This document shows positions 4,459 through 57,437 of a stretch of DNA of 64,000 nt, in pieces. The stretch spans positions 4,558,001 through 4,622,000 of the forward strand of contig NZ_CP037922.1 of assembly GCF_004355185.1 (NCBI RefSeq), written 5' to 3'. Within the stretch, counting starts at the first letter, position 1. Each line of letters begins with the position of its first letter. Below the pieces are notes generated by a model. That model had not been told where the DNA came from. It saw only the letters and a list, made by a program, of their open reading frames with translations, and searched no databases. Origin of the DNA: Hymenobacter radiodurans. GTDB lineage: Bacteria; Bacteroidota; Bacteroidia; Cytophagales; Hymenobacteraceae. The position numbers were made by a program, and so were the translations under genes.

Positions 4459-4648
4459 CGATACGTACGGGATAAGGGTGGGTGGAAACGAGCCGACCGG
4501 GGGGCAAATTTGCTCCCCAGGCCGAACTATTCAAGCGGGTATTCGCGGGCAAAGCCACAAACGAAAGATACAGGAATGTATGAATTTTGCGCGGTCTGAC
4601 GCTGACCTGTGGATTCTGTAAGTAAGCACCTTAGCGTACAGTACTACA

Positions 4649-30245: not shown

Positions 30246-30308
30246 GTTTTATCAACGCAAAAAAGCCCCCCAGCATTGTGCTGGGGGGCTTTTTTGCGTT
30301 GATAAAAC
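30246..30308. terminator. Perfect 30-bp inverted repeat terminator
   Basis: 30246-30275 and 30279-30308 pair without mismatch around a TTG loop. The centre has the common core with six G/C pairs and flanking A/T runs. It is 6 bp beyond the minus-strand GH43 stop at 30315. Confidence 0.95.
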
Positions 30309-52197: not shown

Positions 52198-52392
52198 CTT
52201 GCCTTCAGAGAATTATATTAGGACTGCAAAGGTACTGAAAACAAACAGGCCACGCGAACGACAAGTTGCATTGCACTAGGAAAGCTAACGCGACAATAGC
52301 ACGTTCAACTTGCTTCTTTAACAATAATATAAAGCTCATTAAATATTATCCTTTCCGGAAAATCCCTACTTTACCGTCGTAAGTCTGTACCA

Positions 52393-52490
52393 ATGACCGC
52401 ACTTTCCAGTTTCAACGACGTATTTTTTGCTCTGGGGGCTTTTTTCCCGCGCCCACCATTGGCTACACAACAGGTATTACAACCCGCTAG
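52393..52490 (+). CDS. thrL: Threonine-operon leader peptide (Thr/Ile-rich)
   Basis: Not readable in one frame as sequenced. Adding one G to the run 52434-52438, as needed in many genes here, gives a 32-residue peptide from ATG 52393 to TAG 52488-52490 ending TIGYTTGITTR. The last eleven residues have five Thr and two Ile, the amino acids derived from homoserine. The stop codon directly abuts segment 1 of the antiterminator/terminator hairpins. This is the arrangement of amino-acid attenuation leaders. A ribosome stalled on scarce Thr-tRNA or Ile-tRNA changes the RNA fold. thrA follows 115 bp later. Confidence 0.8.
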
Positions 52491-52582
52491 ACGGGCTGCG
52501 CTACCTCTCCTTGCCTTGATGTTCGCAGCCCGTCGCCGGCCGCTTCCTGACCCGAAGCCAAGCCGGTCCCGACGGGCTTTTT
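52490..52582 (+). promoter_or_regulatory. Transcription attenuator of the thrABC operon
   Basis: Segment 1 (52490-52500, GACGGGCTGCG) pairs perfectly with segment 2 (52524-52534, CGCAGCCCGTC), 11 bp. Segment 2 with its extension (52527-52540) pairs alternatively with 52562-52578, made of GCCGG and CGACGGGCT with a 3-nt bulge. The run TTTTT (52578-52582) makes that second structure an intrinsic terminator. An inner small hairpin (GCTTC/GAAGC) caps it. The two folds share segment 2 and exclude each other. A ribosome at the stop codon covers segment 1, so the terminator forms. A ribosome stalled further upstream on Thr/Ile codons leaves segment 1 free, and thrA is transcribed. Confidence 0.85.
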
Positions 52583-52604
52583 CGTGTCCTTTAGCTTCTG
52601 TCTT

Positions 52605-55052
52605 ATGCAGGTTCTCAAATTTGGAGGAACGTCGGTGGCCACGGCGGCCAATCTTCAGCGCGTCGCGCAACTCGTCGAAACCGCTGCCCAGCACACGACT
52701 ACCGTGGTTGTGGTATCGGCCCTCGGCGGCACTACCGATGCCCTGATCGAAGCCGGGCGCCTGGCCGCGGCGGGCTCGACGCACTATCGCACGCAGCTGC
52801 AGCGCCTCGAAGACCGGCACTTAGGCGTGGTGCGGGATTTACTGCCCATCTCGGAGCAAAGCGCGGTGCTCAGCTTGGTCAAAACCCACTGTAACGAGCT
52901 GGACAGCATCTGCGACGGCATATTTGCCTTGGGTGAGTTATCCGACCGCACGCTCGACCGGCTGATGAGCTTCGGCGAAATATTGTCGTCGCGGCTGCTG
53001 GCCGCCTATCTTAAAGCGCAGGGCGTCGCTCACCTCTGGCAGGACAGCCGCCAGCTCATCCGCACCGATTCGCGCCACGGCTTCGCAACCGTAGATAGCG
53101 AAACGACCAACCAGCAGATTCAGGCGTTTGTGGCGGCGCAGCCCTGTCAGATGTATGTCGTGCCGGGCTTTATTGGCAGCGATGCGCAGGGCGTTACCAC
53201 CACGCTGGGCCGCGGCGGCTCCGATTATACGGCCGCTATTTTTGCGGCGGCACTGGCGGCGGAGCGACTGGAAATATGGACCGATGTGAGCGGCATGATG
53301 ACCGCCGACCCACGCCTGGTAACGCTGGCCCGGCCTATCCCGCGCATCTCTTACCAAGAGGCCATGGAGCTGTCGCACTTCGGGGCGAAGGTATTGTATC
53401 CGCCTACGGTTCAGCCGGTAAGAAGCCAGGGCATTCCGCTCTGGATCAAGAACACATTTGCCCCCCAGGACGAAGGCACGCTGGTAGAAGTGAATCCGCC
53501 GGCCAATAAGGATGTCGTGCGGGGCCTGTCGAGCATTGCGCAGTTGGCCTTGCTCAACCTAGAGGGCAGCGGCATGGTAGGCATTCCGGGGTTCTCGCGG
53601 CGGCTGTTCGGGGCACTGGCCCAGCAGCGCATCAACGTGATTCTGATTACCCAAAGCTCCTCGGAACACTCCATCTGCGTGGCTGTCCGCGCCGCCGATG
53701 CCGAGCAGGCGCAAAAGTCTGTAGATGAGGAATTTGCCGCAGAAATAGCAACGGGCAAAGTAGAGCCGCTGCGCTGCGAAAACGACTTGGCTATTGTGGC
53801 CTTGGTAGGCGATAACATGCGCAATCACCCCGGTATCAGCGGACGCATGTTTAGCGCCTTGGGCCAGAATGGGGTGAATATCCGCGCTATTGCCCAGGGC
53901 TCGTCGGAGCGCAACATATCGGCCGTCATTCGGGCCACTGATGTGCGCAAGGCCATCAACGTGCTGCACGAGGCGTTTTTCGAGGCTACGGCGAAGCAGG
54001 TAAATCTGTTTGTGGCGGGTGTGGGCAACGTGGGGGGCAAATTACTGGAGCAAATGGCCCGCCAGCAGGAATGGCTGCGCGAGAAGCTTCGGCTGAATTT
54101 GCGCGTGGTAGGCTTAGCGAACAGTCAGCGCTTTGTATTGACCGAAAACGGCGGCATTGCGCTCGACGATTGGCAGGCGGCGCTGGCGCAAGGGCAGCCG
54201 CTTGATTTGGCGGAGGTCGTTCGGCAGCTTCACGAGCTGAATCTGCGCAATACCGTTTTTGTGGATGTAACGGCCAGCGCCGAGGTAGCGCAGATTTATG
54301 CGGCGCTGCTGGAGAAAAGTGTGGCGGTGGTAGCCTGCAATAAGGTGGCTTGCTCCTCAGACTATGCGAGTTATGCCCAGCTGAAAGAGTTGGCGCGGGA
54401 GTTCAACGCGGAGTTTCTGTTCGAAACCAATGTAGGCGCCGGTTTGCCCATTATTGGCTCGCTCAACGACCTACTCCGCAGCGGCGACGAGGTGCGGCGC
54501 ATCGAAGCAGTGCTGTCTGGCACGCTCAACTTCGTTTTCAACCACTACGATGGCACCGTTCCCTTTGCCGATGTGGTCCGACAGGCGCAGGCCGAAGGCT
54601 ACACGGAGCCAGACCCACGCCTCGACCTCAGCGGCACCGACGTAGCGCGTAAAATTTTGATTTTGGCCCGGGAAGCCGGCCAGGAAATGGAGCTGACCGA
54701 TATTCACAACGAGTCATTCCTGCCGGCTTCCTGCCTGGAAGGAGATGTAGAAGCGTTTTACCAGCAGCTGGCCGTACACGAAGCTCATTTCCGTAGTCTG
54801 TATGATACGGCAGCGGCCCAAGGCCAGCGGCTGAAGTTCGTGGCGCGCTACGCCGACGGGCAGGCCAGCGTTGGATTGCAAGGCGTGGCGCCGGGCCATG
54901 ATTTCTACGTGTTGCAGGGCAAAGACAATGCGGTGCTGTTCTTCACCAATCGATATTCGGAGCAGCCGCTGGTGGTGAAAGGGGCCGGCGCGGGCGCTGA
55001 TGTCACGGCCTCAGGCGTTTTCGCCGATATTATTCGGGCCTCACGGGCGTAG
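52605..55052 (+). CDS. thrA: Bifunctional aspartate kinase/homoserine dehydrogenase
   Basis: 815 residues from ATG 52605. The kinase half (1-290) opens with MQVLKFGGTSVATA, the family start, and has TLGRGGSDYTAAIFAAAL and WTDVSGMMTADPR. Two ACT domains follow (about 315-460: GMVGIPGFSRRLFGALAQQR and NHPGISGRMFSALGQNGVN), the allosteric sensors for threonine. The dehydrogenase half has GVGNVGGKLL (NAD(P) loop), VACNKVACSS, TNVGAGLPIIGSLNDLL and EGYTEPDPRLDLSGTDVARK, with its catalytic Lys. It catalyses the first and third steps from aspartate to homoserine. Controlled by the attenuator ending 22 bp upstream. Confidence 0.97.
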   Translation: MQVLKFGGTSVATAANLQRVAQLVETAAQHTTTVVVVSALGGTTDALIEAGRLAAAGSTHYRTQLQRLEDRHLGVVRDLLPISEQSAVLSLVKTHCNELDSICDGIFALGELSDRTLDRLMSFGEILSSRLLAAYLKAQGVAHLWQDSRQLIRTDSRHGFATVDSETTNQQIQAFVAAQPCQMYVVPGFIGSDAQGVTTTLGRGGSDYTAAIFAAALAAERLEIWTDVSGMMTADPRLVTLARPIPRISYQEAMELSHFGAKVLYPPTVQPVRSQGIPLWIKNTFAPQDEGTLVEVNPPANKDVVRGLSSIAQLALLNLEGSGMVGIPGFSRRLFGALAQQRINVILITQSSSEHSICVAVRAADAEQAQKSVDEEFAAEIATGKVEPLRCENDLAIVALVGDNMRNHPGISGRMFSALGQNGVNIRAIAQGSSERNISAVIRATDVRKAINVLHEAFFEATAKQVNLFVAGVGNVGGKLLEQMARQQEWLREKLRLNLRVVGLANSQRFVLTENGGIALDDWQAALAQGQPLDLAEVVRQLHELNLRNTVFVDVTASAEVAQIYAALLEKSVAVVACNKVACSSDYASYAQLKELAREFNAEFLFETNVGAGLPIIGSLNDLLRSGDEVRRIEAVLSGTLNFVFNHYDGTVPFADVVRQAQAEGYTEPDPRLDLSGTDVARKILILAREAGQEMELTDIHNESFLPASCLEGDVEAFYQQLAVHEAHFRSLYDTAAAQGQRLKFVARYADGQASVGLQGVAPGHDFYVLQGKDNAVLFFTNRYSEQPLVVKGAGAGADVTASGVFADIIRASRA

Positions 55053-55156: not shown

Positions 55157-56085
55157 ATGCCTATTTCTGATTTTCTGACGCTGTACTCGCCGGCTACGGT
55201 TGCTAATATGGTATGTGGGTTCGACATACTGGGCTTTGCCCTGGAAGCGCCTTACGATACCATGCACATGCGCCTCACCGACCAGCCGGGCGTAGTAATT
55301 ACGCATGAGGACGACTTCCAGCTCCCCACCGAACCCGCGCGCAATGTGGCTGGGGCCGCCTTGCTGGCCTTGCTGGAAGCAGCCCCAGCGGGTACGGGCT
55401 TCGAGGTGCGCATCAATAAAGCTATTCTGCCGGGCAGCGGCATTGGGAGTAGCGCGGCCAGCGCGGCCGGGGCCGTAGTAGGCGCCAATAAGCTGCTGGG
55501 GGCATTTTTTCGCCGGAAGAGTTGGTTCGGTTCGCCATGTTTGGGGAAGAAGTGGCCTCCGGTGCCCAGCACGCCGATAATATTGCGCCCGCTATCTATG
55601 GCGGCGTCACGCTTATTCGTGCTACGGAGCCGATCGATGTGGTGCCGCTGTCGGCGCCTCCGCTGCACGTGACGGTCGTGCACCCGCAGATTGAGGTGCG
55701 CACCGCCGACGCCCGCCAGATGCTTAAGCAGCAGGTATCATTGAAATCTGCTATCCACCAGTGGGCCAACGTGGCTGGACTGGTAGCCGGACTTTTAAAG
55801 GCAGATTACCAGCTGATTGGCCGCTCGCTCGAAGACGTTATTGTTGAGCCAGTCCGCAGTATTCTAATTCCGGGGTTTGCGGCCGTGAAGTCGTGTAGCT
55901 TGGAAGCGGGGGCTTTGGGCGGTGGCATTTCGGGCTCCGGGCCGTCCATTTTTATGTTGAGTGAAGATGAAGCCACAGCCCAGGCAGTAGCCAGCGCTAT
56001 GCGGGCGGTATATGAAAAGCTGAGCGTTGATTTTCATATCCACGTCAGCACCATTAATTCAGTTGGCGTGCGCTTTAAGCAATAG
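55157..56085 (+). CDS. thrB: Homoserine kinase, frameshifted
   Basis: 309 residues after repair. GHMP kinase: VANMVCGFDILGFALEAP, then the ATP loop LPGSGIGSSAASAAGAVVGA, and in the second part FGEEVASGAQHADNIAPAIY and GALGGGISGSGPSIFML. It phosphorylates homoserine for threonine synthase. The break is at the G-run 55498-55502; one added G converts the junction to ..NKLLGGIFSPEELVRFAMFG. All catalytic parts are present, so the enzyme is likely intact. It begins 104 bp after thrA. Confidence 0.94.
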
Positions 56086-56145: not shown

Positions 56146-57437
56146 ATGCGCTATTATAGCCTCAATAAGCAAGCTCCGTCCGTTGATTTTCAGGCCGCTA
56201 CCATTGCCGGCCAGGCCCCCGACGGCGGCTTATATTTTCCGGAGCAGGTTCCAAAGTTCTCGCCCGATTTGCTCAACAACCTCAAAACGATGCCGCGGGC
56301 GGAGGTGGCGTTTGAGGTTATTTGGCCGTATGTGGGAAATACCATTCCGGCTGATGTACTGCGCACGATCTGCGCGGAAACCGTGGATTTCGAGTTCCCA
56401 CTGGTGCCCGTGACCGAGCGGATAGCCGCGCTGGAGCTGTTTCATGGCCCGACGCTGGCTTTTAAGGATGTGGGTGCCCGGTTTATGAGCCGCTGCCTTG
56501 GCTACTTTTCGCGGCAGCAAAAAGCGACCATTACCGTGCTGGTGGCAACCTCCGGCGACACGGGCGGGGCCGTAGCCGACGGATTTTTGGGTGTAGAAGG
56601 CGTGGAAGTCGTTATTCTGTATCCGTCGGGCAAAGTAAGTCCGTTGCAGGAGCTGCAGTTGACTACGCTGGGCCAAAACATCACGGCGCTGGAAGTGCGC
56701 GGTAACTTCGACGACTGCCAGCGCCTCGTGAAGCAGGCTTTTCTCGACCCCGCAGTAGCCGCGCACCGGCAGCTCACCTCGGCCAATTCCATCAATGTAG
56801 CCCGCTGGCTGCCTCAGCAGTTTTATTACTGCTACGCCCTGCAACAATGGACGCAAAAAAGCCCCCAGTGGTGGCGGTGCCCAGCGGCAACTTTGGTAAC
56901 ATCTGCGCTGGCCTGCTCGCCCACGCGTCGGGGTTGCCTATCGGGCACTTTGTGGCGGCTTGCAACGCCAATTCAGCCGTAGCCGACTACCTGCGCACGG
57001 GCACTTTTACCGCCCGCACGGCCGTCGTCACGCTTTCTAACGCAATGGACGTAGGTAACCCCAGCAACTTCGGCCGCATCCTAGAACTGTTTGGGCAAAG
57101 CCACCCAGATATCAGTCAGTTGGTGAGTGGGGCAATTATTTCCGATGAGCAGACGAAAGAAACCATCCAGCGCGTGTATCAGGAATCGGGCTATTTGCTG
57201 GATCCTCACGGCGCAGTTGCGTTGAAGGCACTAGAAGATTATCTCACTGACCACCCTACTGACCAAGGCATTTTCCTGGAAACAGCGCACCCAGTGAAGT
57301 TTCCAGAAGTAGTAGAGCCCGTTATTGGAGCCGTAGTGCCGGTACCAACCGCAGTGCAAGGCCTGCTGAGCCGGACTAAGCGCAGTATCCTACTAGAGCC
57401 GGAGTACGCTGCTTTGCAGGAGTTTTTGCTCCGATAA
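56146..57437 (+). CDS. thrC: Threonine synthase, frameshifted
   Basis: 430 residues after repair. PLP enzyme of fold type II: LFHGPTLAFKDVGARFMSR holds the Lys that binds PLP, and VATSGDTGGAVADGFLG is the cofactor-phosphate loop. The break lies at the C-run 56862-56866. One added C gives ..QKSPPVVAVPSGNFGNICAG, with the conserved S-G-N-F-G-N. The second part includes LSNAMDVGNPSNFGR. It converts O-phosphohomoserine to threonine, the final step of this operon. It begins 60 bp after thrB. Confidence 0.95.

Follow-up and report, generated by a model that had tools for sequence, protein, structure and literature searches.

A putative leader-peptide attenuator in front of the threonine operon of Hymenobacter

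In Escherichia coli and other gammaproteobacteria, thrABC is preceded by an attenuator that consists of a leader peptide rich in threonine and isoleucine codons, an antiterminator and an intrinsic terminator (Rfam family thr_leader). Candidate attenuators were reportedly listed also in Bacteroidetes/Chlorobi by Vitreschak et al. in 2004, and the RNA known as Bacteroid-trp stands before trp genes. The former work is cited in the available text of PMC1262725, and the available part of PMC2864571 presents Bacteroid-trp (RF01692) as a cis-regulatory RNA of Bacteroidetes. A 2010 report stated that, apart from ermC, every demonstrated case had come from Proteobacteria or Actinobacteria until its own in Firmicutes (PMC2965389). 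In Flavobacterium psychrophilum, a member of the same phylum as Hymenobacter, clues for leader-peptide attenuation were reported upstream of amino-acid operons. The conserved elements there include those of pheA and hisG, and some of them had no Rfam hits; the main text contains neither 'thrA' nor 'threonine' (PMC9723704). A map of Bacteroides thetaiotaomicron, as far as its accessible text goes, includes leader-peptide-like ORFs in long 5′ UTRs (PMC7366714).

Our searches, which covered open-licence papers, turned up no account of a leader before the thr genes of Hymenobacter or Chitinophagaceae. Here, we analysed a stretch of 64,000 nucleotides of Hymenobacter radiodurans (hereafter the window) and the corresponding loci of related genomes. 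Sequence comparison makes it about 90% probable, in our estimate, that the element in front of thrA is a classical ribosome-mediated transcription attenuator of thrABC. This kind of system is already known, and the Hymenobacter thr attenuator is a fresh case of it. It shares with thr_leader the Thr leader and the alternative antiterminator and terminator before thrABC, but it gives no covariance match to that family, its isoleucine codons are not universal, and several of its leaders also carry valine and methionine codons. Bacteroid-trp is likewise a cis-regulatory RNA of Bacteroidetes, but it had no match in any of 31 genomes of the Hymenobacter family, the H. radiodurans genome included, while a Bacteroides control was positive. 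For Bacteroidota, where we found few descriptions of leader-peptide attenuation, the element offers a clean example supported by sequence, and 39 genomes in which it could be tested.

The probable switch in front of thrA

All features of the operon and its leader described in this section lie on the forward strand. The first gene of the operon, thrA (52605–55052), matches 28 Hymenobacter loci at 69–89% identity, and we take its product to be a fused aspartokinase–homoserine dehydrogenase; the two following genes (55157–56085 and 56146–57437) are presumably thrB and thrC, named from their position and general knowledge. A probable −10 element, TACTTTAC (52367–52374), was recognized by eye in the upstream sequences, where relatives have TACTTTG or TACTTTA; Bacteroidota promoters carry TAnnTTTG. 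The leader peptide gene (52393–52490) would run from an ATG at 52393 to a TAG at 52488–52490 and is out of frame as deposited. Its end (52455–52487), with its Thr and Ile codons, reads TIGYTTGITTR directly before the stop. Segment 2, the 5′ arm of the antiterminator (GACGGGCTGCG, 52490–52500), starts on the last base of this stop codon and is a perfect 11-bp complement of segment 3 (CGCAGCCCGTC, 52524–52534), with a predicted stability of −20.1 kcal/mol. Continued and shifted by three bases, segment 3 also serves as the 5′ arm of the terminator (AGCCCGTCGCCGGC, 52527–52540), so that antiterminator and terminator are mutually exclusive. Segment 4 (52562–52582) comprises the 3′ arm of the terminator (GCCGGTCCCGACGGGCT, 52562–52578) and the T-run, and the resulting 14-bp stem with a 3-nt bulge reaches −23.9 kcal/mol, or −31.8 kcal/mol including its inner hairpin. 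The ATG of thrA follows 22 bp past the end of the switch. Direct reading and a script both confirmed the coordinates that a preliminary description of the window had given for the leader stop, the two stems and the thrA start. The five T that it placed behind the terminator are present as well, but at 52578–52582, with the first T already within the stem. In addition, segment 1 (CCCG, 52483–52486) is predicted to pair with CGGG at 52492–52495, which would place the stop codon in a loop.

In the mechanism that we propose, RNA polymerase would transcribe a leader gene of about 32 codons, the last third of which is rich in Thr and often in Ile codons. With ample charged Thr-tRNA, the ribosome would reach the stop at 52488 and sit on segment 2; the 3:4 terminator would then form and transcription would end near 52582. 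When threonine is short, the ribosome would stall upstream and cover segment 1 but not segment 2; the resulting 2:3 pairing would preclude the terminator and allow transcription of thrABC. If the ribosome were released or absent, the small 1:2 hairpin at the stop could keep segment 2 away from segment 3. A ribosome whose A site holds the stop codon would cover the next dozen bases, which here make up segment 2, and one waiting at the ACA codons at 52467–52472 would cover the last leader codons while leaving segment 2 free; these distances fit the classical attenuator scheme. When the whole leader RNA is folded to equilibrium, the antiterminator forms and the terminator does not, so the model requires a ribosome or kinetic folding.

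The arrangement had been judged unlikely to arise by chance, and shuffling bears this out. Among 20,000 dinucleotide shuffles of 52490–52590, none produced two overlapping stems of 11 and 9 bp with TTTT behind the latter, nor did any of 20,000 at relaxed stem lengths of 8 and 7 bp. On the other side, folding the whole leader gives only a moderate gain in stability over shuffles (z −2.24), and a simple terminator scan found no more than expected by chance (1 found, 0.8 expected); conservation is the stronger evidence for the switch.

Conservation within Hymenobacter and the integrity of the leader

The ThrA search produced 80 named loci and matches in all 101 Hymenobacter genomes, including distant ones at 31–40% identity that are presumably other aspartokinases. 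The element stands before thrA in 39 of these genomes, once in each; carriers include H. roseosalivarius, H. elongatus, H. wooponensis, H. guriensis, H. nitidus, strain BT18, H. mucosus, H. daecheongensis and H. citatus. Of 48 Hymenobacter loci with the element, eight exactly repeat a genome already represented (L084, L094, L098, L101, L104, L106, L119 and L122); we dropped these and aligned the remaining 40 (alignment A1). Both the codons and the stems noted in the window recur in these relatives: in 40 of 40 loci the leader stop abuts segment 2, the antiterminator is predicted when the fold ends at segment 3, and the terminator is predicted at −22.5 to −41.3 kcal/mol. In five loci (L099, L005, L102, L007 and L110), the stretch first used for the antiterminator was long enough for the terminator to win; the antiterminator count above comes from folds of all 40 loci that end at segment 3. 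A T-run follows the terminator in A1, broken in L090–L092 (TTCTT) and short in L120 (TTTAT). Applied to the MAFFT alignment, RNAalifold returned 7 pairs only, because the alternative stems and unequal loops compete; hence our use of folds per sequence. The expectation of covariation in both stems was borne out for the antiterminator, where none of 2,000 row shuffles reached the observed pairing (10 distinct rows), but not for the terminator, where 291 of 2,000 did (12 distinct rows), its arms being nearly invariant and the anchors misplacing the L010 group.

The covariance model R2 matched the same proportion of the genus, 39 of 101 genomes, always beside thrA and with E ≤4.9e-14. Each of the 39 is either a row of the model or shares its genome with a named row, and the search revealed neither a new carrier nor a second copy. 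Of ten weaker matches within the genus (E 4.8e-5 to 0.0074), the eight other than that in G040 and the second in G100 were read, and none is an amino-acid leader; outside the genus, R2 gave two weak matches in 118 genomes of the order, neither resembling an amino-acid leader.

An ATG-started leader of 27–32 codons is intact in 39 of the 40 loci when the ATG nearest the promoter is used, and the single exception is the window. Threonine is present among the last 15 residues of every leader and makes up 232 of these 600 residues (39%), next to 65 Ile, 42 Val and 17 Met. The leader had been described as a Thr/Ile peptide. Its threonine part holds throughout, whereas isoleucine is missing from the last 15 residues in eight leaders (L003, L009, L090, L091, L092, L103, L105 and L107), and the constant signal, judging from this composition, is threonine. 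Typical ends are GTGIITGITTR, TTTGTATTTR, GTGMVTTTR, GTTVITTR and TATTGIITG, and the final residue is Arg in 35 leaders, Gly in three and Cys in two. An automatic scan for ORFs with at least 5 Thr in the last 15 residues, which requires ATG, GTG or TTG within 260 bases and misses some leaders visible by eye, found one in 39 of the 48 attenuator loci, compared with 0–0.4% of shuffles (0.3% for the attenuator loci) and none on the reverse strands of these 48 loci or of the other groups scanned. The same scan was positive in 34 of 52 non-Hymenobacter loci, 2 of 12 loci of the family, 5 of 25 of the order and 5 of 24 of the class.

With the leader intact in 39 of 40 loci and the elements conserved, the original proposal of a threonine-dependent, ribosome-controlled attenuator of thrABC is supported. 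One could instead imagine a conserved 5′ UTR terminator governed by a protein, a small RNA or a metabolite, with the ORF being incidental. Some relatives in Bacteroidota do keep a Thr leader with no terminator visible, so the parts are separable. However, the Thr-rich, ATG-started ORF is intact in 39 of 40 loci and has its stop against segment 2 in all 40, and the Rfam covariance search at gathering score gave no match with any family, thr_leader included, in the window or in 20 related loci; we regard such control as highly improbable. A riboswitch or T-box was also considered and rejected, as there was no Rfam match.

The attenuator that we favour requires a leader in frame, and the window as deposited has five G at 52434–52438, with which the frame from the ATG at 52393 extends over 117 codons and past the switch; the frame that encodes TIGYTTGITTR has no ATG, GTG or TTG start. 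The leader had been taken to be in frame once one G is added, and this agrees with the relatives: six G are found at this run in L083, L112 and L002 (H. roseosalivarius) and in G094 and G010, the two nearest relatives. At three places, the window is one base shorter than both G094 (L150) and G010 (L151): at 52434 in the leader, at 55498 in thrB (a G) and at 56862 in thrC (a C). Each loss cuts a run of six G or C to five, and all three runs match the G6C motif described below in the relatives; thrB and thrC are split at these runs in the window and whole in G094. A shortened C-run inside the thrA of G010 splits that gene. The window (64 kb) has 28 exact five-G runs ahead of C(A/T)3, compared with 9 in G094, 14 in G064 and 22 in G010 (about 60 kb each). 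The six G of the relatives, together with the identical six-to-five shortening that splits thrB and thrC, make a systematic homopolymer-length error the likeliest cause of the broken leader, which would then be intact in the living cell. The deposited five G, taken at face value, would mean that the leader is truly broken in this strain and the attenuator dead or stuck in one state. This is quite improbable given the six G of both closest relatives, the same loss at two further runs of the operon and the excess of five-G runs in the window, and three separate true losses of one kind in a single operon would be unlikely.

The element is absent from 30 loci of other Hymenobacter clades, in none of which the ORF scan found a Thr-rich leader; the genus is therefore not dependent on the attenuator. 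Some of these loci have features of their own. In the last 120 bases before thrA, five loci of one clade (L014, L026, L028, L029 and L071), which do not carry the attenuator, share by eye an inverted repeat, TTCTGGTT...AACCAGAA, of about 55 bases that ends near the thrA start. In the H. cavernae/crusticola group (L011, L017, L115, L117 and L118), a hairpin-like pair, for example CAGAAAGTG...CACTTCTG with one bulge, followed by CTGCTTTTC, lies upstream of thrA, where inspection by eye showed no Thr leader.

The predicted stop-codon hairpin and leaders of the Chitinophagaceae type

The preliminary description regarded the layout as simpler than that of known attenuators, with the terminating ribosome itself blocking the antiterminator and no separate fourth segment. 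At its core, this logic is right: a ribosome at the stop would block segment 2, which is itself classical logic and compatible with a 1:2 hairpin. The supposed simplicity is not supported: in separate folds of this stretch, the last leader codons of 40 of 40 loci can pair with segment 2 in the manner of a classical 1:2 stem, with predicted stabilities of −3.8 to −9.3 kcal/mol and a loop that contains the stop codon. The last leader residue varies while the hairpin around the stop remains possible.

In a reduced design, segment 1 would have no function, and nothing but the ribosome at the stop would hold segments 2 and 3 apart. Such a design would account for the weak 1:2 stem of the window (−4.4 kcal/mol by itself versus −20.1 for 2:3). 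It would also agree with the covariation of 1:2 within the genus, which is no better than shuffles (384 of 2,000 row shuffles reach the observed value, with 6 distinct rows, nearly invariant arms and anchors that misplace the L010 group), and with the Hymenobacter stop-codon segments folding only modestly better than shuffles (mean −8.5 versus −5.9 kcal/mol; 13% of shuffles reach the mean). However, the hairpin is predicted at every locus, and one of its pairs changes from C-G to G-C on both sides (CCCGC/GCGGG versus CCCGG/CCGGG). Moreover, a hairpin at the stop of 41 leaders of the Chitinophagaceae type (31 distinct) is far more stable than shuffles (mean −10.3 versus −3.8 kcal/mol), these leaders having been chosen for showing both arms, which biases the value upward. 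We consider the reduced design rather unlikely, and a classical attenuator in which a 1:2 hairpin can form the better reading. For 14 leaders picked by hand from other families (13 distinct), with the same upward bias, the mean was −9.2 versus −5.8 kcal/mol for shuffles, and by eye the stop triplet lies in the hairpin loop in ten, L199, L201, L210 and L217 being the others. Other stems at the stop are CATGCCC/GGGCATG (L174 and L175) and AATCCGC/GCGGATT (L056), the latter compensatory by eye. The leader frames of L073 and L081 continue through the hairpin and end only after it.

Leaders of the Chitinophagaceae type, which come from Chitinophagaceae and Bacteroidetes assemblies, stand before thrA and end much like those of Hymenobacter, in ACA ACC CGY and a stop (for example ATT ACA ACC CGT TAA), and continue into a strongly conserved stretch (ACAUUUCCAUAUUACC...GGGC; consensus ACATTTCCATATTACCNCNGGGC in alignment A2). 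No intrinsic terminator is visible by eye in the leaders of A2. This alignment holds 36 of the 52 non-Hymenobacter ThrA loci (leader positions L016:1350–1419, L053:1389–1458 and 34 more). The search pattern had flagged 41 loci, and L056 shows the element by eye; L036, L047, L049, L073, L081 and L056 were left out. A looser cut of the stability count took 38 loci, including the doubtful stretch of L073, and the count was repeated on the 41; four loci (L164, L165, L188 and L204) had no recognized N-terminus and were not counted. Within Chitinophagaceae, the A2 hairpin shows no covariation, as the sequence is too conserved.

Model R1, of the Chitinophagaceae type, gave one strong copy per genome in 10 genomes, namely the training copies before thrA, and no convincing further copy before other operons in these genomes; five extra matches (E 1 to 4.7) look like chance by eye, with genes read for two. 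R1 found new copies before thrA in 3 of 149 genomes of the class. A low-threshold Rfam scan of one Chitinophagaceae leader returned four matches, all far below gathering scores.

In a ThrA tree of 75 rows, made by a quick method with SH-aLRT support only, Hymenobacter and Chitinophagaceae-type rows group together (100), apart from other Hymenobacteraceae. Identity to the 52 non-Hymenobacter, Chitinophagaceae-type loci is 60–65% versus 44–51% to other Hymenobacteraceae, for which 14 of 25 genomes passed the cut-off. A transfer of the operon, leader included, between these families is probable. It is tempting to suggest, if only tentatively, that Bacteroidota have their own family of Thr leaders with an ancestral switch built on the stop-codon hairpin. 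Chitinophagaceae and several other families would act through ACAUUUCCAUAUUACC...GGGC with no intrinsic terminator, whether by Rho, by a protein or at the level of translation. Hymenobacter would later have added the terminator to the ancestral hairpin. The two leader types could serve as a natural before-and-after comparison, with the same end and stop hairpin, with and without a terminator. Leaders with a terminator of another type (GCCTTCC...GGAAGGC-T or similar) were seen by eye before thrA in the other Hymenobacteraceae loci L158–L163 and in L203, L208 and L215 of family f41.

A G6C motif in a few Hymenobacter genomes

The broken G-run of the window leader is one copy of a motif, G6C(A/T), that is specific to a clade and present in about 3,000 copies. 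The longest G or C runs of the window are six bases long. There are 48 of them, each reading GGGGGGC on one strand, and 45 continue with A or T. Counts of HGGGGGGCWWW reach 3,107 in G000, 2,577 in G010, 3,215 in G064 (whose thr locus is identical to that of H. roseosalivarius, L002) and 3,586 in G094, versus 15–82 in the other 97 genomes of the genus and 45–83 for the reversed motif in the four rich genomes. In a set of 295 class genomes, G000 is the sole outlier, and the genome ranked second has about 100 copies. Derived from 213 sites, the consensus CTGGGGGGCWWWTTT can be read as C-T-GGGGGGC-W-W-W-T-T-T; the two strands are used about equally, at 0.75–1.02 copies per kb. Its seven-base core is 94–97% identical between species versus 82–86% for the flanks, and the whole heptamer is identical at 72–82% of sites versus 38–48% of control G/C heptamers, a comparison biased upward since the sites were chosen in the window. 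Examples in the window lie at 4499, 11467 and 49025, and the motif occurs in genes too.

The uptake sequences of Haemophilus and Neisseria have a similar density, A/T tail and placement. By analogy, the G6C motif resembles such DNA uptake sequences or HIP1, and a motif linked to methylation or recombination would be equally possible. Among the papers listed by our searches, none dealt with a motif of this kind in Hymenobacter, and the available text of PMC4390886 does not mention the genus. If the G6C motif were a true DNA uptake signal, it might matter more than the attenuator itself. Inverted pairs of the motif are found in terminator-like places of the window, at 30266/30283 and 51072/51109.
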